From Cryptosporangium minutisporangium (lineage in GTDB: Bacteria; Actinomycetota; Actinomycetes; Mycobacteriales; Cryptosporangiaceae), in the NCBI RefSeq assembly GCF_039536245.1, contig NZ_BAAAYN010000029.1:116879-174193 (forward strand): a stretch of DNA of 57,315 bases, in the 5' to 3' direction. The notes beneath the pieces are model-generated. The model was not told the origin of the DNA. It was given only the letters and a program-made list of their open reading frames with translations, and searched no databases. This document shows positions 11,414 to 22,830 of the stretch, in pieces. Numbering within the stretch: the first letter of the stretch is position 1; every line of letters begins with the position of its first letter. The translations under genes were made by a program, and so were the position numbers.

Positions 11414-12433
11414 ATGCGTCTTCTCGCCGCCCTGGTCATGCTGGCCACGGCCCTCACCCCGGACGCCGCCACCGCACCGGCGACCCGCCCCGGGGCCGTC
11501 CCCACCGCCGCGGCCGCGGTGGAGACCGAGCCGGTGGCCCACTCCGCCGCCGCCGCGCTCGACGTCGGGCTCTGGCGGGATCCCGCGCGGCGCCGCCGGT
11601 CGATGCTGGTGGGTACCGACCAGAAGGGCCCGCTGGAGACGTACGACCTGTCCGGTCGCCGGCTGCAGCGGATCAACAACGTCTACCCGACCGGCGTCGA
11701 CGTCCGGGGCAACGTCGTGGTCGCCACCTCGGGGCGGACGCTGCGCGTCTACACGGTGGACCCCGGCACCCGTCGGCTGACCCAGCGTGCGGTGGTGCCG
11801 ACCGGAGTGACGCCGTACGGGCTCTGCCTCTACCGCTCCGCACGCACCGAGCGGCTGCACGCGTTCGCCACCTCGGTCGGCGGGCGGGTCGAGCAGTGGC
11901 AGCTCACCGTTCGTGGCCGCCGGGTGGCCGCGAAGTCGCTGCGCACCTGGAAGATCGGGACCCGGCTGGACGCCTGCGTCGCCGACGACTCGAACGGCGC
12001 CTTGTACGTCAGCGAGCAGCGGTACGCGGTCTGGCGGTATCGGGCAGAGCCGGACGCCGGCCTGGGACGGACCCGGGTGGATTGGGCGAAGACGCGGTGG
12101 AGCGGCGCCGACGGCAAGGTGACGGCGAACGCCGAGGGCCTGGCGATCGCCGGCGACCGGCTCTACGTGTCGTCCCAGGGCAGCAGCGACTTCGCGGTCT
12201 ACCACCGGGTGAGCAACGCCTACCTGGGCCGGTTCCGGGTCGCGAACAGCACCGGCGACTCCGGGGTGGACGGCTGCCAGGACAGCGTCGGGATCGAGGC
12301 GACCAGCCGCCCGCTGGGCCCGCGGTTCCCGAACGGCCTGTTCGTCTGCCACGACGGGTACAACGTCGACGACACGACCGTGCACCGGGAGAACTTCAAG
12401 CTGGTACCGATGACCCGCGCGATGCGTCCGTGA
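11414..12433 (+). CDS. Secreted beta-propeller phytase
   Basis: 339 aa. A signal peptide (MRLLAALVMLATALTPDAATA) is followed by a six-bladed beta-propeller phytase domain. Family marks are TDQKGPLETYDLSGRRLQ, NNVYPTGVD, TPYGLCLYRS, DACVADDSNGALYVSEQ for Ca2+ binding, and FPNGLFVCHDGYN near the end. These enzymes are extracellular, Ca2+-dependent, and release phosphate from inositol hexakisphosphate. The ATG at 11414 is chosen because it begins the signal peptide; the frame opens at 11357 with an unlikely Arg-rich leader. No Pho-box was searched systematically. It is convergent with ridA. Confidence 0.82.
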   Translation: MRLLAALVMLATALTPDAATAPATRPGAVPTAAAAVETEPVAHSAAAALDVGLWRDPARRRRSMLVGTDQKGPLETYDLSGRRLQRINNVYPTGVDVRGNVVVATSGRTLRVYTVDPGTRRLTQRAVVPTGVTPYGLCLYRSARTERLHAFATSVGGRVEQWQLTVRGRRVAAKSLRTWKIGTRLDACVADDSNGALYVSEQRYAVWRYRAEPDAGLGRTRVDWAKTRWSGADGKVTANAEGLAIAGDRLYVSSQGSSDFAVYHRVSNAYLGRFRVANSTGDSGVDGCQDSVGIEATSRPLGPRFPNGLFVCHDGYNVDDTTVHRENFKLVPMTRAMRP

Positions 12434-12446
12434 TCAGCACGGTGCG

Positions 12447-12481
12447 TCGCCGTCGGTCCCGCGCCTCGCCGTCGGCCCCGC
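12447..12481. repeat. 16-bp direct repeat between convergent genes
   Basis: TCGCCGTCGGTCCCGC (12447-12462) recurs as TCGCCGTCGGCCCCGC (12466-12481) with one mismatch. It lies in the 52-bp gap between the phytase stop and the RidA stop. No hairpin with a convincing stem was seen; function unknown. Confidence 0.4.
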
Positions 12482-12485
12482 CGCG

Positions 12486-12890
12486 TTAGTCCAGCGCGGC
12501 GAGCGCGTCGATCTCGACGAGCATCTCCTCCCGGGGCAGCCCGGTCATCACCGTCGTGCGCGCGGGCAGCACCCCGGACGCGACCCGCGCCGAGACGAAC
12601 GCCCCGTACGCCTCGTTCATGATCGGGAAGTGGGCCCGGTCGGTGAGGTAGACCCGCAGCATCAGCACGTCGTCGAAGGTCGCGCCGCCCGCCCGCAGGA
12701 TCGCCTCGACGTTGCGCAGCGTCTGTTCGGTCTGCTTGGCGACGTCGCCCGGGTACAGGTACTCGTTCGTCGCCGGGTCCACCGGGCCCTGCCCGGACAC
12801 CTGGAGCAGACCGCCCTTGCGGACCCCCTGGGAGAACGTGTGAGCGGGCGTCGGGGCCTGATCGCTGACGATCGCGGTACGGGTGTTCAC
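12486..12890 (-). CDS. ridA: RidA-family (YjgF/YER057c/UK114) imine/enamine deaminase
   Basis: 134 aa, full length for a RidA trimer subunit. Family signatures are HTFSQGVRKGGLLQVSGQGPVDP, TEQTLRNVEAILRAGG, VLMLRVYLTD, and a C-terminal PARTTVMTGLPREEMLVEIDALA, where the Arg and Glu contact the ketoacid-like ligand. RidA hydrolyses the reactive enamine/imine released by PLP dehydratases. Its placement beside a DSD1-like dehydratase, across the divergent promoter, fits that role exactly. The GTG start overlaps the IclR stop in a GTGA (12887-12890), so the two are translationally coupled. Confidence 0.88.
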   Translation of the reverse strand: MNTRTAIVSDQAPTPAHTFSQGVRKGGLLQVSGQGPVDPATNEYLYPGDVAKQTEQTLRNVEAILRAGGATFDDVLMLRVYLTDRAHFPIMNEAYGAFVSARVASGVLPARTTVMTGLPREEMLVEIDALAALD

Positions 12891-13651
12891 GGGGTGTCTT
12901 CTCCTCCGGTTCGGTACCCGCAGTCGCGGGAGACGTCGGCGGCCGCCGCCACCAGGGACGGGACGAGCTCCAGCACGCCGTCGTAGGGGAGCAGGACGTC
13001 CGGGACGGACACCGATACGGCGGCCAGCGTCCGCCCGTCGGCGCCGTGGATCGGGGCGCCGACGCAGTTGATGAACGTCTCGTTCTCGGCGTGGTCGGTG
13101 GCCCAGCCACGGTCGGCCACCCGCGCCACCTCGGCCAGCAACTCGTCCGGGCTGCCGGGGGTCCGCTCGGTGAAGCGCGGGTAGTCCAGCACGGCGGCGA
13201 GCTCGGCGCGCTCGGCCGGGTCGAGCCCGGCGAGCAGTACCTTGCCGACCGCGGTGCTGTGCAGCGCCGCGGACTTGCCGATCCGGGACGCCATCCGCAC
13301 CGGGGCCTGGCGGGGCTCGAGCTTGTCCACGTAGGTCGCGACCGTGCCGTCGAGCACCGCGAGGTGGATCGTCTGGCCGATCTCGTCCCGGAGGCGCCGG
13401 AGCCGCGGCGCGGCCACGACCCGCACCTCGAACGAGTCCAGCGCCTGCTGCGCGAGCCGGAACAGGTGCGGGCCGAGGACGTACCGGTGCTCGCCGTCGG
13501 AGTGCACGAAGCCTTCGGACTCCAGGACGCGCAGCAGCCGCAGCACCGTGCTCTTGTGGACACCCTCGGCCTCGGCCAGCGCGCCGAGCGTGCCGACGCC
13601 GTTCGCCACCCGATCCAGCAGCGAGAGCGCCCGGGCCACCGACTGGCTCAT
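12887..13651 (-). CDS. IclR-family transcriptional regulator
   Basis: 254 aa. An N-terminal winged helix-turn-helix (SVARALSLLDRVANGVGTLGALAE and HKSTVLRLLRVLES) precedes an effector-binding domain with IGQTIHLAVLDG, LHSTAVGKVLLAG and FINCVGAPIHGADG. IclR proteins typically repress a neighbouring catabolic operon until a sugar acid or aromatic acid binds. This one sits between kinase and ridA genes; it overlaps the kinase by 4 bp and is the obvious candidate to control the divergent promoter at 14623-14710. The likely effector is a pathway intermediate such as KDG or glucosaminate (inference). Confidence 0.88.
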   Translation of the reverse strand: MSQSVARALSLLDRVANGVGTLGALAEAEGVHKSTVLRLLRVLESEGFVHSDGEHRYVLGPHLFRLAQQALDSFEVRVVAAPRLRRLRDEIGQTIHLAVLDGTVATYVDKLEPRQAPVRMASRIGKSAALHSTAVGKVLLAGLDPAERAELAAVLDYPRFTERTPGSPDELLAEVARVADRGWATDHAENETFINCVGAPIHGADGRTLAAVSVSVPDVLLPYDGVLELVPSLVAAAADVSRDCGYRTGGEDTP

Positions 13652-14622
13652 CCGGCGAGACCCTCCCACGCCGGCAGCGTGACCGGCCGGTCTTCCCGGA
13701 CCGTGAGCGCCGCGGCGGCGCAGCGGTGCCCGAGCCGCACCGCGTCGACGACGTCCAGGCCGTGCCACTGCCCGGCCAGGTAGCCGGCGGCGAACGCGTC
13801 GCCGGCTCCGACCGGCTCCACGACGTCCACCGGCAGCGCGGGGACGTGCCGGACCGGAGCGCCCGGTTCGAGCACCAGAACGCCGTGCTCCTCCCGCTTG
13901 AGCAGGATCCGGGCCGCGCGGGGCAGCGCACGGAGCAGCGCGTCCGGGTCGGCGGTGCCGAACACGGCCGTGGCCTCGTCGGCGCCGAGCTGCACCTCGT
14001 CGGCCCGGGACAGCAGACGCCGCAACGGCGCGTCGTCGCGGTCGCGCCAGAGCGCGGGCCGGTAGTTCAGGTCGACCGACAACCTGGCGTTCCCGGGGAG
14101 CGCGTCGCAGAAGGCCGCCGCGCTGTCGGAGAGCCCGGCGGTGATGCCGCTGACGTGGACGACACCGGCCCGGCCCAGCAGCGCGGCGACCTCGGGGCGC
14201 TCCAGGTACGCGGGGGAGAGCGCGGAGGCGGCCGAGCCGGCGCGGTAGTAGAGCATCGCCGAGCGCCGCGACCCGTCCGGCGCGGTGCCCGGCGTCTTGA
14301 CGTAGAGGCCGGTCGGGCGGGTGCGGTCGAACTCCACCGCGGACACGTCGACGCCGGCGGCCCGGGCGACCGCGGCGACGTGCTGACCGAACCCGTCGTC
14401 GCCGAGGCGGGACAGCCAAGCGGTCGGGACACCGAGCCGGGCCAGGGTCAGCGCGACGTTGAGTTCGGCTCCGCCGATCGTGCGGACGAACGTGGACGCG
14501 TCGGCGAGCGGGACGTCGTCGGCCGGCGTGAGCACGGCCATCGCCTCGCCGACGCAGACGACGGTGCCGGCCGTGCCGACGGCGCTGAGGGGGCCCACGG
14601 ACGTGACCTTTGACCCGGGCAT
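13648..14622 (-). CDS. kdgK: PfkB-family sugar kinase, probably 2-keto-3-deoxygluconate kinase
   Basis: 324 aa ribokinase/PfkB fold. The N-terminal substrate pocket has GEAMAVLTP and GGAELNVALTLARLG, the middle has FDRTRPTGLYVKTPG (KDG-kinase-like) and LSVDLNYRPALW. The C-terminal signature is VEPVGAGDAFAAGYLAG with the catalytic Asp. KDG kinase (2-keto-3-deoxygluconate to KDPG) is the most specific reading because a KDPG aldolase gene lies in the divergent arm of the same cluster. Other sugar-acid or ketose kinases cannot be excluded by motif alone. It is the first gene of the minus-strand arm, starting at the divergent promoter. Confidence 0.8.
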   Translation of the reverse strand: MPGSKVTSVGPLSAVGTAGTVVCVGEAMAVLTPADDVPLADASTFVRTIGGAELNVALTLARLGVPTAWLSRLGDDGFGQHVAAVARAAGVDVSAVEFDRTRPTGLYVKTPGTAPDGSRRSAMLYYRAGSAASALSPAYLERPEVAALLGRAGVVHVSGITAGLSDSAAAFCDALPGNARLSVDLNYRPALWRDRDDAPLRRLLSRADEVQLGADEATAVFGTADPDALLRALPRAARILLKREEHGVLVLEPGAPVRHVPALPVDVVEPVGAGDAFAAGYLAGQWHGLDVVDAVRLGHRCAAAALTVREDRPVTLPAWEGLAG

Positions 14623-14646
14623 GCGGCGATGCTAGAACCGACGGGA

Positions 14647-14680
14647 GCAACTCTGCAACAGCCATTGCGCAGGATGCAAC
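14647..14680. promoter_or_regulatory. Candidate IclR operator in the divergent promoter
   Basis: GCAAC occurs three times on the plus strand (14647, 14655, 14676), and TTGC at 14665-14668 pairs with GCAA at 14676-14679 to form the quasi-palindrome TTGC-N7-GCAA. IclR-family sites are often quasi-palindromes of this size. The site sits midway between the kinase start (14622) and the dehydratase start (14711). Confidence 0.4.
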
Positions 14681-14710
14681 GGCGATCGGGTCCCACGCCG
14701 GAGGTGGTTC

Positions 14711-16000
14711 GTGCGTTACGACGCGGAGACGGTCGGCCCACTCGGGCCCGACCGGAAGGCGGTCCCGGTCACGGCCTGGGGCCGCACGGCCGCGGAGTTC
14801 GTCGCGGGCGCGCCCGGCCTCGCCGACCTGCCGACGCCGGTGGTGACGCTCGACGACGGCGCGGTCACCGACAACGTCGCGGTGATGGCCGGCTGGGCCC
14901 GGGCGGCCGGAGTGGACCTGGCGCCGCACGGCAAGACGACGATGGCCCCCGCGCTCTGGCGCGCACAGCTCGACGCCGGGGCGTGGGGCCTGACCGTCGC
15001 GACGCCGTGGCAGCTGGCGGTCGCGCTCACCGAGGGAGTGCCGCGTGTCCTCGCCGCCTACTCGGTGCTCGATCCGGGTGTCCTCGCGCTGGTGTCCCGT
15101 CCGCGGACGGCTCGGGTGCTGGTCTGGGCGGACGGCGTGGACGTCGTCGCGGCGATGGCGCCGCACGTCGCCGGTGCGGTGGAGCCGGTCGACGTGCTGG
15201 TCGACCTCGGGGCGCCCGGCGGCCGCACCGGTGCCCGCTCGCTGGAGGCCGCGGTCGCGGTCGGCCGTGCGGTGGTCACGACTCCGGGACTCCGCCTCGC
15301 CGGGGTCGCCGGGTACGAGGGCGCGCTGGCCCACGACGCGTCGCCGGAGAGCCTGGACCGGATCCGTACCTACCTGACGCAGCTGGCCGCAGTGCACACC
15401 GCACTCCGGGACCTCTACGACCCGGCGACCGAACTCGTCGTCACCGCGGGCGGCAGCGCCTACTTCGACCTGGTCGCCGAGGCCCTCGCGCCGCTGCACG
15501 ACCCGGACGGGCGGCGCGGCCAGGCCACCCGCGTGGTCGTCCGGGCCGGGGCGTACCTCGCCCACGACGACGGTTTCTACCGGGGCATCTCGCCCTTCGC
15601 CCGGGTACCCGGCAGCCGGAACGGCGGCGGGGGCTTACGCGCCGCGCTGCACGGCTGGGTCCGAATCATCTCGCGCCCCGAGCCCGGATTGGCGCTGGCC
15701 GACGGCGGCAAGCGCGACCTGCCCTTCGACGAGGGACTGCCGGAGGTGCAGGCGATCCGCCAGGGCGGGACCGCCGCCACCGAACCGCTGGCCGGCGCCG
15801 AGGTCACCGCGCTCGCCGACCAGCACACGTTCCTCCGGCTCTCCGGCGACGCCGAGCGGCTCGCGGTCGGCGACGTGGTGCGGCTCGGCCTGTCCCACCC
15901 GTGCACGACGTTCGACAAGTGGAGCCTGCTGCCGGTGCTCGACGACGCCCACGCGCCGCAGCCGGTCGTGGTCGACGTGGTCCGGACCGTGTTCGGATGA
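14711..16000 (+). CDS. DSD1-like PLP-dependent D-amino-acid dehydratase (fold III)
   Basis: 429 aa, alanine-racemase-like fold type III. The PLP lysine is in APHGKTTMAP (Lys75). The C-terminal beta domain carries the metal pair of D-serine dehydratases as His-Pro-Cys (His396, Cys398) in LSHPCTTFDKW. These enzymes need PLP and Zn2+ and eliminate ammonia from D-configured beta-hydroxy amino acids. D-glucosaminate (2-amino-2-deoxy-D-gluconate) is such a substrate and would yield KDG, which the neighbouring kinase and aldolase would use. D-serine or D-threo-hydroxy amino acids are the alternatives. The GTG start has GGAGGTGG (14699-14706) upstream; its stop overlaps the next ATG by 4 bp. Confidence 0.82.
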   Translation: MRYDAETVGPLGPDRKAVPVTAWGRTAAEFVAGAPGLADLPTPVVTLDDGAVTDNVAVMAGWARAAGVDLAPHGKTTMAPALWRAQLDAGAWGLTVATPWQLAVALTEGVPRVLAAYSVLDPGVLALVSRPRTARVLVWADGVDVVAAMAPHVAGAVEPVDVLVDLGAPGGRTGARSLEAAVAVGRAVVTTPGLRLAGVAGYEGALAHDASPESLDRIRTYLTQLAAVHTALRDLYDPATELVVTAGGSAYFDLVAEALAPLHDPDGRRGQATRVVVRAGAYLAHDDGFYRGISPFARVPGSRNGGGGLRAALHGWVRIISRPEPGLALADGGKRDLPFDEGLPEVQAIRQGGTAATEPLAGAEVTALADQHTFLRLSGDAERLAVGDVVRLGLSHPCTTFDKWSLLPVLDDAHAPQPVVVDVVRTVFG

Positions 16001-17592
16001 ACACCGTCCGGACCGCGATCCGCGGCGCCACGATCGTCGACGGCACGGGTGCCCCCGCCTACCGCGGTGACGCGCTCTTCGCCGACGGGCGGATCGCGGC
16101 GCTGGGGCGGGTGGATCCGGTCGCCGGTGCACGGGAACTCGACGCAGACGGCCTCGTGCTCGCGCCCGGTTTCATCGACATGCACGCCCACTCCGACCTG
16201 GCCGTGCTCACCGACCCCCAGCACCTGGCGAAAACCACCCAGGGCGTCACCACCGAGGTCGTGGGCCAGGACGGGCTGAGTTACGCCCCGGTCGACGACG
16301 TCACGCTGCCGATCCTCTCCGCGCAGCTGGCCGGGTGGAACGGCGTCCCCGCGGACGTGGGATGGCGCAGCGTCGGCGAGTACCTCGACCGGGTGGACGC
16401 CGGGGCGGCGGTCAACGTCTGTTACCTCGTGCCGCAGGGCAGCGTCCGGATGATGGTCGTCGGCACCGACGGCCGGCCGGCGACGCCGGCCGAGCTCGAC
16501 CGGATGGCCGAGCTGGTGCGGGACGGCCTCGCCGACGGCGCGGTCGGGATGTCCAGCGGCCTGACGTACGTGCCGGGCATGTTCGCCGACACCGACGAAC
16601 TGGTCGCGCTGTGCCGGGTGGTCGCCGCGGCGGGTGGGTTCTACGCGCCGCACCAGCGGTCCTACGGCCGGGGCGCGCTGGCCGCGTACGCCGAGATGGT
16701 CGACGTCGCCCGTCGCAGCGGCGTCGCGCTGCACCTCACCCACGCGACGATGAACTTCGAGGTCAACCGCGGCCGCGCGGGGGAGCTGCTGGCACTGGTG
16801 GACGCCGCACTCGCCGACGGCGTCGACGTGACGCTGGACAGCTACCCCTACCTGCCGGCCTCGACGACGCTCGCCGCGCTGCTGCCCAGCTGGTCGGCGA
16901 CGGGCGGCCCGGAGGCGACGCTGTCCCGGCTCGCCGACCCCGCCGCCGTGGCCAGGGTCCGGGAGGCGCTGGAGGTCACCGGCTCCGACGGCAACCACGG
17001 CGTCGTCGTCGACTGGGACACGGTGCAGATCGCCGGCGTGCGGAACCCCGCGCTGTCCGGCTGCGTCGGCGCGACGATCGCCGAGATCGCGGCCGGTACC
17101 GCCCGGCAGCCGTTCGAGGCCTTCGTCGACGTGCTCCGCCGCGACCGGCTCGGCACCACGATCCTGCTGCACGTCGGCCACGAGGCGGCGGTCCGGGAGA
17201 TCATGCGGCACCCGAGGCACTGTGTCGGCAGCGACGGCCTGCTGATCGGCGCCCGCCCGCATCCCCGCGCGTGGGGCACGTTCCCCCGCTACCTCGGCCA
17301 CTACGTGCGCGAGGAGGCGGTGCTCGGCCTCGAGGAGTGCGTCGCCCGGATGACCTCGCGGCCGGCGGCCCGGCTCGGGCTGACCGACCATGGCGTGCTC
17401 CGGGTCGGTGCGGTCGCCGACGCGGTGCTGTTCGACCCGGCGACGGTCGCGGCCGGGGCCACGTTCGACGCTCCGCGGCGGCCGGCGGTCGGCATTCCGC
17501 ACGTCTGGGTCGCCGGGGTGCCGGTGATCGACGACGGCCGCCGCACCGACGCCCTGCCCGGCCGTGCGCTGCGCCGGGAGCGTGCCGCGTGA
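15997..17592 (+). CDS. N-acyl-D-amino-acid deacylase (amidohydrolase)
   Basis: 531 aa, D-aminoacylase/dihydroorotase-like amidohydrolase. Features are the N-terminal beta sandwich, APGFIDMHAHSD with metal ligands His63 and His65, LTHATMN (His248), LLHVGHEA (His391, His394), and catalytic-type Asp412 in HCVGSDG. In characterised D-aminoacylases a cysteine in the GVTT-xxVGNCG loop bridges zinc; here the loop reads GVTTEVVGQDG, so that position is Asp92. This suggests a distinct subfamily. Its likely substrate is N-acetyl-D-glucosaminate, itself an N-acyl-D-amino acid (inference from neighbours). No signal peptide is visible, so it is cytoplasmic. ATGA overlap with the dehydratase gene and GTGA overlap with the aldolase gene. 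Confidence 0.83.
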   Translation: MNTVRTAIRGATIVDGTGAPAYRGDALFADGRIAALGRVDPVAGARELDADGLVLAPGFIDMHAHSDLAVLTDPQHLAKTTQGVTTEVVGQDGLSYAPVDDVTLPILSAQLAGWNGVPADVGWRSVGEYLDRVDAGAAVNVCYLVPQGSVRMMVVGTDGRPATPAELDRMAELVRDGLADGAVGMSSGLTYVPGMFADTDELVALCRVVAAAGGFYAPHQRSYGRGALAAYAEMVDVARRSGVALHLTHATMNFEVNRGRAGELLALVDAALADGVDVTLDSYPYLPASTTLAALLPSWSATGGPEATLSRLADPAAVARVREALEVTGSDGNHGVVVDWDTVQIAGVRNPALSGCVGATIAEIAAGTARQPFEAFVDVLRRDRLGTTILLHVGHEAAVREIMRHPRHCVGSDGLLIGARPHPRAWGTFPRYLGHYVREEAVLGLEECVARMTSRPAARLGLTDHGVLRVGAVADAVLFDPATVAAGATFDAPRRPAVGIPHVWVAGVPVIDDGRRTDALPGRALRRERAA

Positions 17593-18224
17593 GCGCGCTG
17601 GAGGTGATGTTCGCCGATCGGGTGGTGTGCGTCGTCCGTGCTCCCGTCCTGCCGGATGCGCCCGCACTCTGCCGCGCGCTCGCCGACGGGGGCATCCGCA
17701 GCGTCGAGCTGACGTTCACGACGCCGGACGTGTGCGCCCACCTCACCGCGGCCGCGGCGGTGCCGGGCGTCGTGGTCGGCGTGGGCACCGTGCTCACCGC
17801 GTCGGACGCCGAGGCCGCGGTGGAGGCCGGAGCGCGATTCCTGGTGACGCCGGGGGTGCTGCCCGCGGTGGCCGCCGTGGCGCGGGACGCGGGTGTGCCG
17901 TTCCTGATGGGGGCGCTGACCCCGACCGAGGTACTGGCGGCGGCGTCGCTCGGGGCGGCGGCGGTCAAGGTGTTCCCGGCCTCCGCGTTCGGGCCGCGCT
18001 ACCTCCGCGAACTGCACGGTCCCTACCCGGACCTGCGGCTGGTGCCCTCCGGCGGGATCACGGCGTCCAACGCGCCCGAGTACCTGGCCGCCGGAGCGGC
18101 CGCCGTCACCGCCGGGACCGGCGTGGTCCCGCCCGACGTCGTGCGCGCCGCCGACTGGCCCACGATCACCCGGCACGCGCGCGAGTTCGTCGCGTCGACG
18201 CGTGTGCAGTCGCACGAGTCATAG
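17589..18224 (+). CDS. eda: 2-keto-3-deoxy-6-phosphogluconate (KDPG) aldolase
   Basis: 211 aa class I aldolase of the KDPG/KHG family. The catalytic glutamate is in SVELTFTTP (Glu40), the Schiff-base lysine in AVKVFPASAFGP (Lys127), and the phosphate loop in PSGGITASN. It cleaves KDPG to pyruvate and glyceraldehyde-3-phosphate and completes the catabolic route encoded here. The GTG start overlaps the deacylase stop in a GTGA, so this is the third coupled gene of the plus-strand arm. There is a 97-bp gap before the next gene, so the operon probably ends here. Confidence 0.87.
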   Translation: MSALEVMFADRVVCVVRAPVLPDAPALCRALADGGIRSVELTFTTPDVCAHLTAAAAVPGVVVGVGTVLTASDAEAAVEAGARFLVTPGVLPAVAAVARDAGVPFLMGALTPTEVLAAASLGAAAVKVFPASAFGPRYLRELHGPYPDLRLVPSGGITASNAPEYLAAGAAAVTAGTGVVPPDVVRAADWPTITRHAREFVASTRVQSHES

Positions 18225-18321: not shown

Positions 18322-19425
18322 GTGCGCGCCCGGACGATCGACCTGCTGGTGGCGGCCGCCGTTGCGGTTCCGGTCGCCGGGCAGATCGTCAGCGCGGGCC
18401 CCGGCAACGTGGACGCGCTCGGCATCGCGTTCAACACCGGCACGGTCGTCCCGCTGATCTGGCGCCGCACCGCGCCGTTCGCGATCGCGCTGATCGTGAT
18501 GTCGATGGGCCTGCTCACCTCGGCCTACGAGCAGCCCGGCCAGCAACTGCAGTACGGGGCGCTGGTCGCCACCTACACGGTGGCCGACCTCGCTCCCCGG
18601 CCCTGGCAACGGTGGAGCGTGCTGCTCGGGCAGTGCGTGCTGATCCCGCCCGGCGCGATCTGGATCAAGCACAACACGCTGCCCGAGTTCCTGTTCACGC
18701 TGCTGCTGCCGATCGCCGCCTGGATGCTCGGCACGGTGGCCCGCCTGCACCGGGAGCGGGCCGACGCGCTGGCCGCCCGGGCGGCCGAGCTGGAGCGCCA
18801 GCGCAGCGCCGACGCCGCCCGCGCGGCCGCCGAGGAGCGCGCCCGGATCGCCAGGGACATGCACGACGTGCTGGCCCACGCGGTCAGCGTGATGGTGGTG
18901 CAGGCCGAGGCCGGCCCGCTGGTGGTGCGGTCGGACCCGGACCGGGCCGAGCGGGTCTTCGACGCGATCGCGGCCTCCGGACGCGACGCGATGGCGCAGC
19001 TGCGGCGATCGCTCGGCGTCCTCCGTACGGCGGGCGACACGCCCGCGCTCGCGCCGCAGCCGACGGTCGCCGCGATCCCGGCCCTGGCCGACCGGGTCCG
19101 GGACACCGGCCTGCGCGTGGTGGTCGACGTCGTCGGCGAGCCGGGGCCGTTGCCCGCGGACGCCGAGCTCGCGGCGTACCGCATCGTCCAGGAAGGACTG
19201 ACGAACACCGTGAAGCACGCCGCCGCGACGTCGGCGGCGGTCACGCTGACCTGGCGGGAGGACGGGCTGGCCGTCGCGGTCCGGGACGACGGCCGGGGCG
19301 GGCCGCCCAGCTCCGGCGGGCAGGGGCTGATCAACATCGCCGAGCGGGCCGCGGCGTGCGGTGGTTCCGCGTCCGCCGGTCCGGTCGAGGGCGGGTTCCT
19401 GGTAACGGCGTGGCTGCCCCGATGA
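18322..19425 (+). CDS. Sensor histidine kinase (HisKA_3 type)
   Basis: 367 aa. About four membrane helices in the first 140 residues with almost no extracellular domain, so an intramembrane-sensing kinase. A linker coiled coil (ADALAARAAELERQRSADAA) leads to HisKA_3 with ARDMHDVLAHAVSVM (His181) and a HATPase domain (YRIVQEGLTNTVKHA, DDGRGG). The GTG at 18322 fits the start of the first membrane helix. The next gene overlaps by 4 bp (ATGA) and encodes the cognate regulator. Kinases of this form beside ABC exporters often respond to cell-envelope-active compounds; that is inference. Confidence 0.87.
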   Translation: MRARTIDLLVAAAVAVPVAGQIVSAGPGNVDALGIAFNTGTVVPLIWRRTAPFAIALIVMSMGLLTSAYEQPGQQLQYGALVATYTVADLAPRPWQRWSVLLGQCVLIPPGAIWIKHNTLPEFLFTLLLPIAAWMLGTVARLHRERADALAARAAELERQRSADAARAAAEERARIARDMHDVLAHAVSVMVVQAEAGPLVVRSDPDRAERVFDAIAASGRDAMAQLRRSLGVLRTAGDTPALAPQPTVAAIPALADRVRDTGLRVVVDVVGEPGPLPADAELAAYRIVQEGLTNTVKHAAATSAAVTLTWREDGLAVAVRDDGRGGPPSSGGQGLINIAERAAACGGSASAGPVEGGFLVTAWLPR

Positions 19426-20078
19426 CGATTCGCATCGTGGTCGCGGACGACCAGGAGCTCGTACGCAGCGGGTTCACGATGATCCTGGACGCGCAGCCCG
19501 ACTTCACGGTGGTGGCCGAGGCGGGGGACGGCGAGGCCGCGGTCGCCGCCGCGTACGAACACGCGCCCGACGTCGTCCTGCTCGACGTGCGGATGCCGGG
19601 GCTGGACGGGCTGGGCGCCGCGCGCCGGATCTGCGCCGGGACCACCGCCAAGGTCATCATGCTGACCACGTTCGACCAGGACGACTACGTCTACGACGCG
19701 CTCGCCGCCGGAGCGAGCGGGTTCCTGCTCAAGGACCTGCGCCGGGACGACCTGGTGCACGCGGTGCGGGTGGTCGCCGCCGGAGAGGCGCTGCTCGCGC
19801 CCACCGTCACCCGCCGACTGATCGCCGAGCTCACCCGAGTACGGGCTCGGGGCCACGTGACGCCGTCCCGGCTGGCCGTGTTGACGCCGCGCGAGCAGGA
19901 GACGCTCGCGCTGCTCGGCCGGGGGCTGTCGAACGGCGAGATCGCGGCGGCGCTGGTGGTCAGCGAGCACACGGTGAAGACGCACGTCAGCAACGTCCTG
20001 GCCAAGCTCGGGCTCCGCGACCGCATCCAAGCAGTGATCGCCGCCTACGAGACGGGCCTGGTCGTCCCGGGCGCGTGA
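19422..20078 (+). CDS. NarL/LuxR-family response regulator
   Basis: 218 aa. Receiver domain with VVADDQELVRSG, phospho-acceptor Asp55 in VVLLDVRMPG, threonine in MLTTFDQDDY and lysine in FLLKDLRRDD. The C-terminal LuxR-type HTH carries LTPREQETLALLGRGLSNGEIAAAL and EHTVKTHVSNVLAKLG. It is translationally coupled to the kinase. Probable targets are the ABC transporter genes beginning at 20753. Confidence 0.9.
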   Translation: MTIRIVVADDQELVRSGFTMILDAQPDFTVVAEAGDGEAAVAAAYEHAPDVVLLDVRMPGLDGLGAARRICAGTTAKVIMLTTFDQDDYVYDALAAGASGFLLKDLRRDDLVHAVRVVAAGEALLAPTVTRRLIAELTRVRARGHVTPSRLAVLTPREQETLALLGRGLSNGEIAAALVVSEHTVKTHVSNVLAKLGLRDRIQAVIAAYETGLVVPGA

Positions 20079-20752: not shown

Positions 20753-21655
20753 ATGACCGACAGCACGCTGCAGTTCGACGGCACGACGAAACGCTACGGC
20801 GAGGTCCTCGCGCTCGACGACCTCTCGTTCGAGGTCCGCCCCGGCGAGATCTTCGGATTCGTCGGCAGCAACGGCGCCGGGAAGACGACCGCGATGCGGA
20901 TCGCGCTCGGCGTGCTGTCGGCGGACGCCGGGACGGTCCGGTGGCGGGGCGAGCCGATCACGCTCGAGATGGCCCGCCGCATCGGCTACATGCCGGAGGA
21001 GCGCGGGCTCTACCCGAAGATGAGCGTCGCCGACCAGCTGGAGTACCTCGCCCGCCTGCACGGGATGAGCCGCGCCGACGCCCGCGCGGCCACCGTCGAG
21101 TGGACCGACCGGCTCGGGCTCACCGAGCGTCGGCGCAGCGAGGTCGGGGCACTGAGCCTGGGCAACCAGCAGCGCGTGCAGCTGGCCGCGGCGCTGCTGC
21201 ACGGCCCGGAACTGCTCGTCCTCGACGAACCGTTCTCCGGCCTCGACCCGGTCGCGGTCGACGTGATGAGCAGCGTGCTCGCCGAGCGCGCCGCGGCGGG
21301 CGTCCCGGTGCTGTTCTCCAGCCACCAGCTCGACCTGGTGCAGCGGCTCTGCGACCGGGTCGGCATCATCCGCTCCGGCCGGCTGGTCGCGTGCGACACC
21401 GTGGACGCGCTGCGCAGCACCGAGCGCCAGCTCACCGTCGACGTCCGCGGACCGTGGGACCCGGCGCTGCCCGGCGTCCGGGTCGTGCACAGCGAGGGCA
21501 CCCGGCACGTGCTCGAACTCGCCGACGACGTCGACGACCAGGACGTCCTCCGCGCGGCGCTCGCCGCCGGCCCGGTCACGGAGTTCCGCCCGAACCGGCC
21601 GACGCTCACCGAGCTGTTCCGCACGGTCGTCACCGACGAGGGAGCCACCAGTTGA
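20753..21655 (+). CDS. ABC transporter ATP-binding protein (exporter type)
   Basis: 300 aa. Walker A is GSNGAGKTTAM, the Q-loop lies near YMPEERGLYPKMSV, the signature is LSLGNQQRVQLAAALL (LSxGNQQ as in Na+/drug exporters of the NatA/YhaQ group), Walker B is LLVLDEPFSGLDPV, and the H-loop is FSSHQLDLV. A C-terminal DUF4162-like domain (residues 225-300) is typical of this exporter subfamily. It couples ATP hydrolysis to the permease encoded next, whose TTG start overlaps this stop. Confidence 0.9.
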   Translation: MTDSTLQFDGTTKRYGEVLALDDLSFEVRPGEIFGFVGSNGAGKTTAMRIALGVLSADAGTVRWRGEPITLEMARRIGYMPEERGLYPKMSVADQLEYLARLHGMSRADARAATVEWTDRLGLTERRRSEVGALSLGNQQRVQLAAALLHGPELLVLDEPFSGLDPVAVDVMSSVLAERAAAGVPVLFSSHQLDLVQRLCDRVGIIRSGRLVACDTVDALRSTERQLTVDVRGPWDPALPGVRVVHSEGTRHVLELADDVDDQDVLRAALAAGPVTEFRPNRPTLTELFRTVVTDEGATS

Positions 21656-22830
21656 ACACCGCGTCCGTCGTCTGGCTGATCGCCGCCCGGGAGCTGCGGA
21701 CCCGGCTGAAGGCCAAGTCGTTCGTGATCGGCACGCTCGCCCTGCTGGCCGCGATCACCGGGTACCTCGCGCTGAGCGCCTGGCTGGCCAGCTCGTCCGG
21801 CCCGGTGATCGGGCTCTCCGGCTCGGCCGCGCAGCTTCGCCCGGCGATCGAGGCCGTCGCCGAGAGTCTCGACGAGGACCTCGAGGTCCGGATCGTCGAC
21901 GACGCGAACGACGGTCGCCGGGAGGTCCGGGACGGTGACCTCGACGCGCTGATCGTCGGCTCGGCGTCCGCCCCGACCGCGGTGGTGGACGAGGATCTCG
22001 ACGACACCGCCCGTGGCATCCTCACCGCCGTCCTCCAGCAGCGCGCGCTCCAAACCGAGCTGCAGCGCGCCGGGGCCGACCCGGACGCCGTCGTCCGGGC
22101 GGTCGCCGCGGCCGAGATCCGAATCGACGCACTGAGCGAATCCGATCCGCTGGAGGGCGAGCGGCTGGTCCTCGCCGGGGTCGCGATGACGCTGCTCTAC
22201 ATCGCGCTGATCACCTACGGCAGCGGCGTGGCGCAGGGCGTCGTCGAGGAGAAGACCAGCCGGGTGGTGGAGTTGCTGCTGGCCACGGTCCGCCCCTGGC
22301 ACCTGCTGCTGGGCAAGATCCTCGGCATCGGACTGGTGGGGCTGGTCCAGCTGGTGATTCTCGGCGGGGTCGGCCTGATCGGGGCGTCGGTCGCGGGCCA
22401 GCTCACGCTGCCGGCCGCCGGGGTCGGGACGTTCGTGTCGCTGCTCGGCTGGTACCTGCTCGGGTTCTTCCTGTTCGCGTCGCTGTTCGCGGCGGCCGGT
22501 GCGCTGGTGTCCCGGTTCGAGGACATGCAGAGCGTCATCTCGCCGCTGATCATGCTGCTGGCGATCGTCTTCGTGGTCGGGCTGAACCTGCTGATCCGGG
22601 ATCCGCGCAGCGAGATCGTCGAGGTGCTCTCGATGATTCCGCCGTTCACCACGATCCTCATGCCCGCCCGCGGCGCGCTCGGCGTCGCCCCGGTCTGGCA
22701 GACCGTGGTCGCGATCGTCCTGACGCTGATCGCGCTGGCGGTGACGGTCCGGCTCGCCGGTGCGGTGTACGAGCGCGGGGTGCTGCACACCGGGTCCCGC
22801 CTGTCGCTGCGGGCGGCCCTCCGCCGGTGA
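21652..22830 (+). CDS. ABC-2 type permease (NatB/YhaP-like)
   Basis: 392 aa. One N-terminal membrane helix (KSFVIGTLALLAAITGYLAL), a large soluble loop of about 150 residues, then five helices starting at LVLAGVAMTLLYIALITYGSGVAQGVVEEKTSRVVELLLATVRP, the ABC2_membrane_3 hallmark. The TTG at 21652 is chosen: it overlaps the ATPase stop and GAGGGAG lies at 21638-21644. It forms the membrane part of an exporter for an unknown substrate (Na+, peptide or drug). Confidence 0.87.
   Translation: MNTASVVWLIAARELRTRLKAKSFVIGTLALLAAITGYLALSAWLASSSGPVIGLSGSAAQLRPAIEAVAESLDEDLEVRIVDDANDGRREVRDGDLDALIVGSASAPTAVVDEDLDDTARGILTAVLQQRALQTELQRAGADPDAVVRAVAAAEIRIDALSESDPLEGERLVLAGVAMTLLYIALITYGSGVAQGVVEEKTSRVVELLLATVRPWHLLLGKILGIGLVGLVQLVILGGVGLIGASVAGQLTLPAAGVGTFVSLLGWYLLGFFLFASLFAAAGALVSRFEDMQSVISPLIMLLAIVFVVGLNLLIRDPRSEIVEVLSMIPPFTTILMPARGALGVAPVWQTVVAIVLTLIALAVTVRLAGAVYERGVLHTGSRLSLRAALRR

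Follow-up and report, generated by a model that had tools for sequence, protein, structure and literature searches.

A divergent cluster of six genes in the actinobacterium Cryptosporangium minutisporangium (positions 12486 to 18224 of the window, the 57,315-nucleotide stretch of contig NZ_BAAAYN010000029.1 analysed here) is a real regulon, widely conserved in actinobacteria, whose substrate is most likely an N-acetyl-aldosaminate. Its function is probably the catabolism of an N-acetylated 2-amino-2-deoxy-aldonate, with N-acetyl-D-glucosaminate (GlcNAc1A) as the leading candidate. In the proposed route, an amidohydrolase would strip acetate from the N-acetyl-aldosaminate, a DSD1-type enzyme would dehydrate the D-configured amino acid so released, and a RidA protein would assist hydrolysis of the enamine/imine to yield 2-keto-3-deoxygluconate (KDG). 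A PfkB kinase would then convert KDG to 2-keto-3-deoxy-6-phosphogluconate (KDPG), which an aldolase would cleave into pyruvate and glyceraldehyde-3-phosphate, while an IclR-family protein would govern both divergent arms via one operator with three half-sites. We infer this order of steps, and each substrate in it, from the evidence laid out below.

Gene content and divergent control region

The cluster and its central control region comprise the following features:

12486–12890, minus strand: RidA-family imine/enamine deaminase (Pfam PF01042, E 7.6e-29)
12887–13651, minus strand: IclR-family regulator (PF01614 and PF09339), with 4-bp overlaps on both sides
13648–14622, minus strand: PfkB sugar kinase (PF00294)
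14610–14638, plus strand: promoter-like TTGACC-N17-TAGAAC for the DSD1 arm, recognized by inspection
14654–14680, plus strand: candidate operator YGCAAY-N4-RTTGCR-N5-YGCAAY (TGCAACAGCCATTGCGCAGGATGCAAC), three half-sites, recognized by pattern recurrence
14711–16000, plus strand: DSD1-type (fold type III) pyridoxal phosphate (PLP) dehydratase (PF14031, E 7.7e-20)
15997–17592, plus strand: Amidohydro_3 deacylase of predicted D-aminoacylase/OngB fold (PF07969)
17589–18224, plus strand: KDPG/KHG aldolase (PF01081; TIGR01182 eda, 178.5 bits against a cut-off of 156.05)

The six genes lie at the places that the original prediction had given, Pfam and NCBIfam matches confirm their families, and its description of three genes per strand joined by 4-bp overlaps is also correct, all four within-arm junctions being of this kind, two on each strand. 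The PfkB protein is probably a KDG kinase: its top NCBIfam model is the bifunctional kinase for KDG and 2-keto-3-deoxygalactonate (KDGal), albeit at 157.9 bits where the cut-off is 400, and the nearest solved sequence is the 2-keto-3-deoxygluconate kinase 1v19. For the IclR protein, a probable repressor of both arms, the top models are BhcR and KdgR, with scores far under the cut-off. The DSD1 protein, which we propose to be a D-glucosaminate dehydratase, has as its nearest solved sequence 3gwq, labelled 'D-serine deaminase', and the amidohydrolase is proposed to be the N-acetyl-aldosaminate deacetylase. Across relatives of the cluster, window included, several residues are invariant (at least 98%): R111 of RidA (90 rows), D275 of PfkB (58 rows), E40 and K127 of the aldolase (51 rows), and K75, H396, and C398 of DSD1 (93 rows). 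We take these to be catalytic, with K127 as the Schiff-base lysine, K75 as the PLP lysine, and H396/C398 as the HxC pair.

In 82 of 102 DSD1-bearing loci, window included, the operator is no more than 400 bp away from the DSD1 start. Its pattern was derived by counting inverted repeats in 75 divergent regions drawn from the loci just named, together with nine printed sequences, so that its recurrence there is partly by construction. Elsewhere in the 102 loci only one copy occurs, ahead of the aldolase gene in L032; this locus is a rearranged variant, and the copy belongs to its version of the divergent promoter. In the genome from which the window derives (9.23 Mb in 152 contigs), the operator is the sole copy at up to one mismatch, and thus no transporter elsewhere in that genome was found under its control; at up to two mismatches the search returned five rows, one of them the same site on the other strand, compared with twelve for a reversed control pattern. 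Being both recurrent among relatives and single in the genome, the operator supports joint control of the two arms, and of these only. The IclR protein would presumably bind here and act as a repressor.

The -35 element of the promoter-like sequence adjoins the annotated PfkB start, and its spacer overlaps that start. Because this sequence crosses the annotated 5' end of the kinase gene, the position of the PfkB start is uncertain; alternative starts lie further in, at GTG 14598 or ATG 14541.

Conservation and neighbouring genes among relatives

A scan of genome contigs with the deacylase returned at least 560 relatives, of which the best 80 were kept as named loci (designated here by L numbers), and the following rates hold for these best-scoring loci while being silent on more distant relatives. 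Counting matches above 50 bits within 8 kb of the deacylase, DSD1 is present in 77 of the 80 loci, RidA in 73, IclR in 68, PfkB in 59, a GntP-family permease in 43, and the KDPG aldolase in 42. All six families of the window occur together in 40 of the 80, distributed over many actinobacterial families, and the combination, which had been thought unusual in actinobacteria, is hence not rare. The nearest named deacylase relative is that of Kineococcus (L035; tree label Kineosporiaceae), at 77% identity. Three congeners, found via DSD1 (L021, L023, and L024), carry the cluster at 67–90% identity. No RidA gene was seen in L021; L023 and L024 have GntP after the cluster, L021 and the window do not. 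More broadly, 81 of 393 genomes of the class have a deacylase of the actinobacterial branch, membership being defined by a top deacylase score of 490 bits or more, a cut set after a gap between 494 and 365 bits had been seen, with up to three candidates scored per genome.

A Tsukamurella record (NZ_LR134451, L196) holds the same seven genes in the same order as the congeners L023 and L024, with nothing of substance different. Annotations of the L196 type are generic ('alanine racemase / D-aminoacylase / sugar kinase / gluconate:H+ symporter'), and no pathway is given in the table. DSD1 enzymes of the cluster kind are often annotated 'alanine racemase' (L196, L199, and other plasmid records), likely a misnaming.

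The genes that accompany the cluster in relatives provide the main clues to its substrate. The GntP permease, near the deacylase at the rate given above and in two of the three congeners, counts in favour of the proposed route; GntP permeases carry gluconate and its relatives. This family alone does not decide the substrate, however, because it also includes the D-serine carrier DsdX, a model of which is among the NCBIfam matches. Amino-sugar genes adjoin several variants. In L081, the deacylase is followed by a lactonase, an ABC (ATP-binding cassette) solute-binding protein, two genes outside the scan, and a glycoside hydrolase of family 20 (GH20). In the Kineococcus locus L035, a lactonase lies upstream, and beyond genes for a major facilitator superfamily (MFS) transporter and a peptidase there are AnmK, MurQ, NagB-II-like, and NagA genes (12098–17392), of which MurQ and NagA exceed the NCBIfam cut-offs and AnmK that of Pfam. 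This set lies a few kb from the DSD1-deacylase pair, and its proximity may point to a link with peptidoglycan amino sugars. L162 has NagA-, NagK-, and NagB-II-like genes, all under NCBIfam cut-offs, together with an ABC importer, and in L043 there are a NagK-like gene and a SIS gene resembling GlmS/NagB, each matching only weakly.

Other variants contain sugar-oxidizing candidates or exchange the deacylase itself. Runs of DSD1, RidA, a short-chain dehydrogenase/reductase (SDR), and deacylase, with the SDR internal, occur in L162, L164, L166, and L167, and L025 and L029 have the order DSD1-SDR-deacylase-lactonase, with deacylases that are 40–41% identical to that of the window and lie outside the actinobacterial branch. 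The L025 SDR scores 218.8 with the 'glucose 1-dehydrogenase' model, which has a cut-off of 215 and describes a broad family. In L032 (7025–11526), an M20-family gene occupies the place of the amidohydrolase between the aldolase and DSD1 genes, under the same operator, with an MFS transporter gene after DSD1. M20 enzymes include N-deacylases, and the substitution fits N-deacylation as a needed step. The shared operator, the GntP permeases, the amino-sugar neighbours, and this exchange within one regulon together back the pathway logic of the original prediction.

Separately, L162–L167, which belong to one family (f36) with genomes of 1.3–2.2 Mb, carry a deacylase 48–53% identical to that of the window; in L162, L164, L166, and L167 it is accompanied by a 32–34% identical DSD1, RidA, and an SDR, and one kind of solute-binding protein is encoded nearby in L162 and L165–L167. 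These very small genomes might, as a guess, belong to freshwater bacteria akin to Nanopelagicales.

The modelled deacylase and the ong pathway

The chemistry proposed here has a proven counterpart in Pseudoalteromonas prydzensis, where experiments described in PMC9537276 showed deacetylation, deamination, phosphorylation, and a requirement for RidA, and this counts in favour of a GlcNAc1A route. Like the window cluster, the ong cluster of P. prydzensis encodes a deacylase of D-aminoacylase fold, a DSD1-type fold III PLP enzyme, RidA, and PfkB, and the ong-type clusters of Vibrio, Klebsiella, and Serratia also have a putative KDPG aldolase; the reaction series proposed is the same. The two systems differ in their regulator, of the RpiR type in the ong cluster (the MurR/RpiR protein OngR) and IclR in the window, and in their transporter, of the SSS family in the ong cluster and GntP in relatives of the window cluster; no SSS transporter, GH20, or TonB receptor is found among the six cluster genes and ten flanking genes. 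Identities to the corresponding proteins of a P. shioyasakiensis ong cluster (L120) are 32% for the deacylase and DSD1, 25% for the kinase, and 26% for RidA.

According to PMC9537276, OngC also deaminates D-serine and D-threonine, so that belonging to the DSD1 family is not enough to settle the substrate. The screen described there, which required four or more genes with over 30% identity to strain ACAM 620, found the complete pathway only in Gammaproteobacteria and one Betaproteobacterium. This screen would probably have missed an actinobacterial route, given that just two of four genes exceed 30% against the related L120 cluster. The main texts of PMC9537276 and PMC12017989 contain no mention of Streptomyces, Actinobacteria, or actinomycete, and we found no description of the actinobacterial cluster among the open-licence papers listed. 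In two further papers, the route could not be confirmed in Aeromonas (PMC11653859), and another GlcNAc (N-acetylglucosamine) route is proposed in Natrarchaeobius, where genes of the IclR and RutC families lie close to chitinases (PMC12343721).

The AlphaFold model of the window deacylase (predicted local distance difference test score, 94.5) has a D-aminoacylase-like fold, consisting of a (beta/alpha)8 barrel and a small beta domain. Its nearest folds are 3gip, 1m7j, 9g5m, and the GlcNAc1A deacetylase PpOngB (9kb1), at template modelling (TM) scores of 0.82–0.84 by query length; PpOngB itself (described in PMC12017989) superposes at TM 0.84 with a root-mean-square deviation of 2.3, at a sequence identity of 30%. 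Relative to the L120 protein, the window deacylase contains a longer insertion. In PpOngB numbering, the window has Asp for Cys97, Tyr for Glu226, Thr for Lys254, Ala for Ser290, and Thr for Ser292. The D-aminoacylases AfDam (1m7j) and BbDam (3gip), at 33–35% identity, share with the window enzyme the fold, the catalytic Asp, and the Thr at position 292, and differ from it in the Cys ligand, which is Asp in the window, and in Lys254, which has no equivalent there.

We surveyed these positions, with PpOngB numbering transferred via L120, in 103 rows of at least 48% identity, window included; the alignment has gaps around position 298 (Gln in OngB), which was excluded. Equivalents of His68, His70, His222, His252, Asp368, Arg379, Tyr194, and Tyr285 are invariant. 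The metal ligand Cys97 is replaced by Asp in all 103 rows (D92, the same in all 31 rows of set A1), so that the Cys/His/His metal site of subtype V amidohydrolases is not kept, and Ser290 is replaced by Gly or Ala throughout. Five haloarchaeal relatives and one from Cetobacterium also have the Asp ligand; all of them keep Lys254, and their neighbourhoods are mixed. The haloarchaeal plasmid relatives (L122–L126) are 41–43% identical to the window enzyme, and as L123 and L126 adjoin histidine-degradation genes (urocanate hydratase), the haloarchaeal substrate may differ.

In quick trees, with support from the SH-aLRT branch test only, the actinobacterial deacylase branch is parted from the presumed OngB rows (two Pseudoalteromonas and one Klebsiella, assigned by residues and place) with a support of 98. 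The three presumed OngC rows, likewise from two Pseudoalteromonas and one Klebsiella, cluster together (99) next to proteobacterial rows, whereas their deep split from the actinobacterial DSD1 rows is weakly supported (70). Judged by its residues, trees, regulator, and transporter, the cluster was rejected as a member of the ong family. The likeness to the marine Pseudoalteromonas pathway that had been pointed out at the outset is therefore functional and not orthologous: the reaction logic is shared, while the OngB substrate residues and metal ligand are gone and the deacylase and DSD1 belong to branches other than those of OngB and OngC.

A wider interpretation, which we put forward tentatively and regard as doubtful in its full extent, is that actinobacteria separately built a non-phosphorylating oxidative amino-sugar route with an IclR operator of its own and a new Asp/His/His deacetylase branch. 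In some lineages, this route could be fed inside the cell, where an SDR sugar 1-dehydrogenase and a lactonase would oxidize GlcNAc or a related sugar, instead of by lytic polysaccharide monooxygenases (LPMOs), and would run beside the standard NagA/NagB/NagK route.

Substrate supply, rival explanations, and significance

The genome has three AA10 genes, all outside the window, and these speak for the GlcNAc1A reading. AA10 enzymes may also act on cellulose. Three LPMO queries found none beside the cluster. The statement that the window contains no transporter or LPMO stands insofar as ten flanking genes scanned with Pfam include no LPMO and no importer of sugars or sugar acids; an ABC-2 type pair is encoded at 20753–22830. 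By Pfam, the flanking genes are unrelated to the cluster, with phytase, TerC, and HDOD genes upstream and a sensor kinase/response regulator pair downstream, followed by the ABC-2 type pair. The former pair, a histidine kinase and a LuxR-type response regulator (18322–20078), lies directly past the aldolase gene, where the congeners L023 and L024 have GntP. Rfam and tRNA searches across the window gave no matches.

At the genome level the association is strong, AA10 genes occurring in 65 of 81 members of the deacylase branch, compared with 65 of 312 other genomes. We rejected this co-occurrence as decisive evidence, since the signal is carried by a few large genera and has a p of 0.09 by genus; dropping four small-genome genera from the genus counts, which were made by hand, lowers p to 0.02, a choice made post hoc. 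The only GntP gene of the genome (L172, G000:C52:32972-34450, two pieces of one frame) lies outside the window. It was rejected as an orthologue of the cluster GntP on account of its 39% identity to the L024 type, and no operator at up to two mismatches occurs on the contig that holds it.

Several observations weigh against a GlcNAc1A route. In the deacylase survey, the GlcNAc1A-binding Glu226 of OngB is Tyr in all 103 rows, Lys254 is replaced by Thr (87 rows), His (10), or Val (6), and Ser292 is Thr in 101. In PpOngB, according to PMC12017989, Ala at substrate-binding residues including Lys254 causes complete or significant loss of activity, and S292T lowers kcat/Km to 1.3%. With these residues lost and such changes harmful in PpOngB, the actinobacterial branch must bind its substrate differently. 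Among the best 80 loci, DSD1 is missing nearby in 3, the kinase in 21, and the aldolase in 38. Amino-sugar neighbours are few, at 4 of 117 deacylase loci, or 7 with weak matches (adding L056, L166, and L168), a raw rate that derives from queries that were the genes of those same loci, so that other families would be missed. An amino-acid permease lies near the cluster in L174, and the deacylase of L054 sits with LacI, GntR, and PALP-family genes instead. A permease of the cluster type was not found in the window genome, where the best GntP is the 39% identical one. In the same genome GH18 yields a single, weak match (49 bits) and GH20 one match, and a GH19 search gave no match, its control queries being silent too; with three AA10 genes beside these, vigorous chitin degradation is not suggested. 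By genus, the association of AA10 with the deacylase branch is weak (10 of 21 against 30 of 102, the one-sided p being that given above).

Another point of this kind concerns Streptomyces coelicolor Sco4986, which was reportedly assayed as a deacylase of N-acetyl-D-Phe/Trp in work attributed to Cummings et al. in 2009. In the Streptomyces locus L099, the deacylase is one gene from HlyIII and two from phosphoenolpyruvate carboxykinase, which we take to be SCO4979. From this position, Sco4986 may be its orthologue. The reported assay would be the strongest point against a GlcNAc1A-specific enzyme.

The same chemistry might act on another substrate, either N-acetyl-D-galactosaminate, passing through KDGal and 2-keto-3-deoxy-6-phosphogalactonate, or an acid from the salvage of N-acetylmuramate (MurNAc) or anhydro-MurNAc. 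The bifunctional KDG/KDGal model of the kinase, the AnmK and MurQ genes beside the cluster of the nearest named relative, and the single weak GH18 match of the genome are consistent with such a substrate, but GlcNAc accounts no less well for the GH20, NagA-, NagB-II-, and NagK-like neighbours and nothing in the analysis favours galactosamine, and we consider it rather unlikely.

Degradation of N-acyl-D-amino acids, by a D-aminoacylase, a DSD1 D-serine/D-threonine dehydratase, and RidA for the imine, with the kinase and aldolase in another or accessory role, would explain the Thr at position 292, as found in D-aminoacylases, the 'D-serine deaminase' label of 3gwq, and the greater constancy of the deacylase, DSD1, and RidA, some loci lacking kinase and aldolase. 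It would also agree with the reported Sco4986 assays, with the amino-acid permease near the cluster in L174, and with the oligopeptide-type ABC transporters adjoining some proteobacterial relatives. The kinase, aldolase, and GntP are nonetheless present at 59, 42, and 43 of the 80 best-scoring loci, amino-sugar genes, lactonases, and sugar dehydrogenases adjoin variants, and Lys254, strictly kept in the D-aminoacylase-like sequences shown in PMC12017989, is absent here. We judge this explanation improbable. That the cluster is a true ong-family member acquired from gammaproteobacteria can be dismissed almost entirely, for although the enzyme types are the same, the proteins are 25–32% identical to those of L120, neither tree nests the window protein with OngB or OngC, and the cluster has IclR in place of RpiR and, in relatives, GntP in place of SSS.

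Actinobacteria are major degraders of chitin in soil and make chitin-active LPMOs. If the GlcNAc1A route proposed here is correct, the fate of oxidized chitin ends in soil would become testable in easy laboratory strains, and enzymes now labelled 'alanine racemase' or 'D-aminoacylase' would gain a function. The deacetylase of this regulon would then show that an enzyme for one substrate evolved separately a second time.

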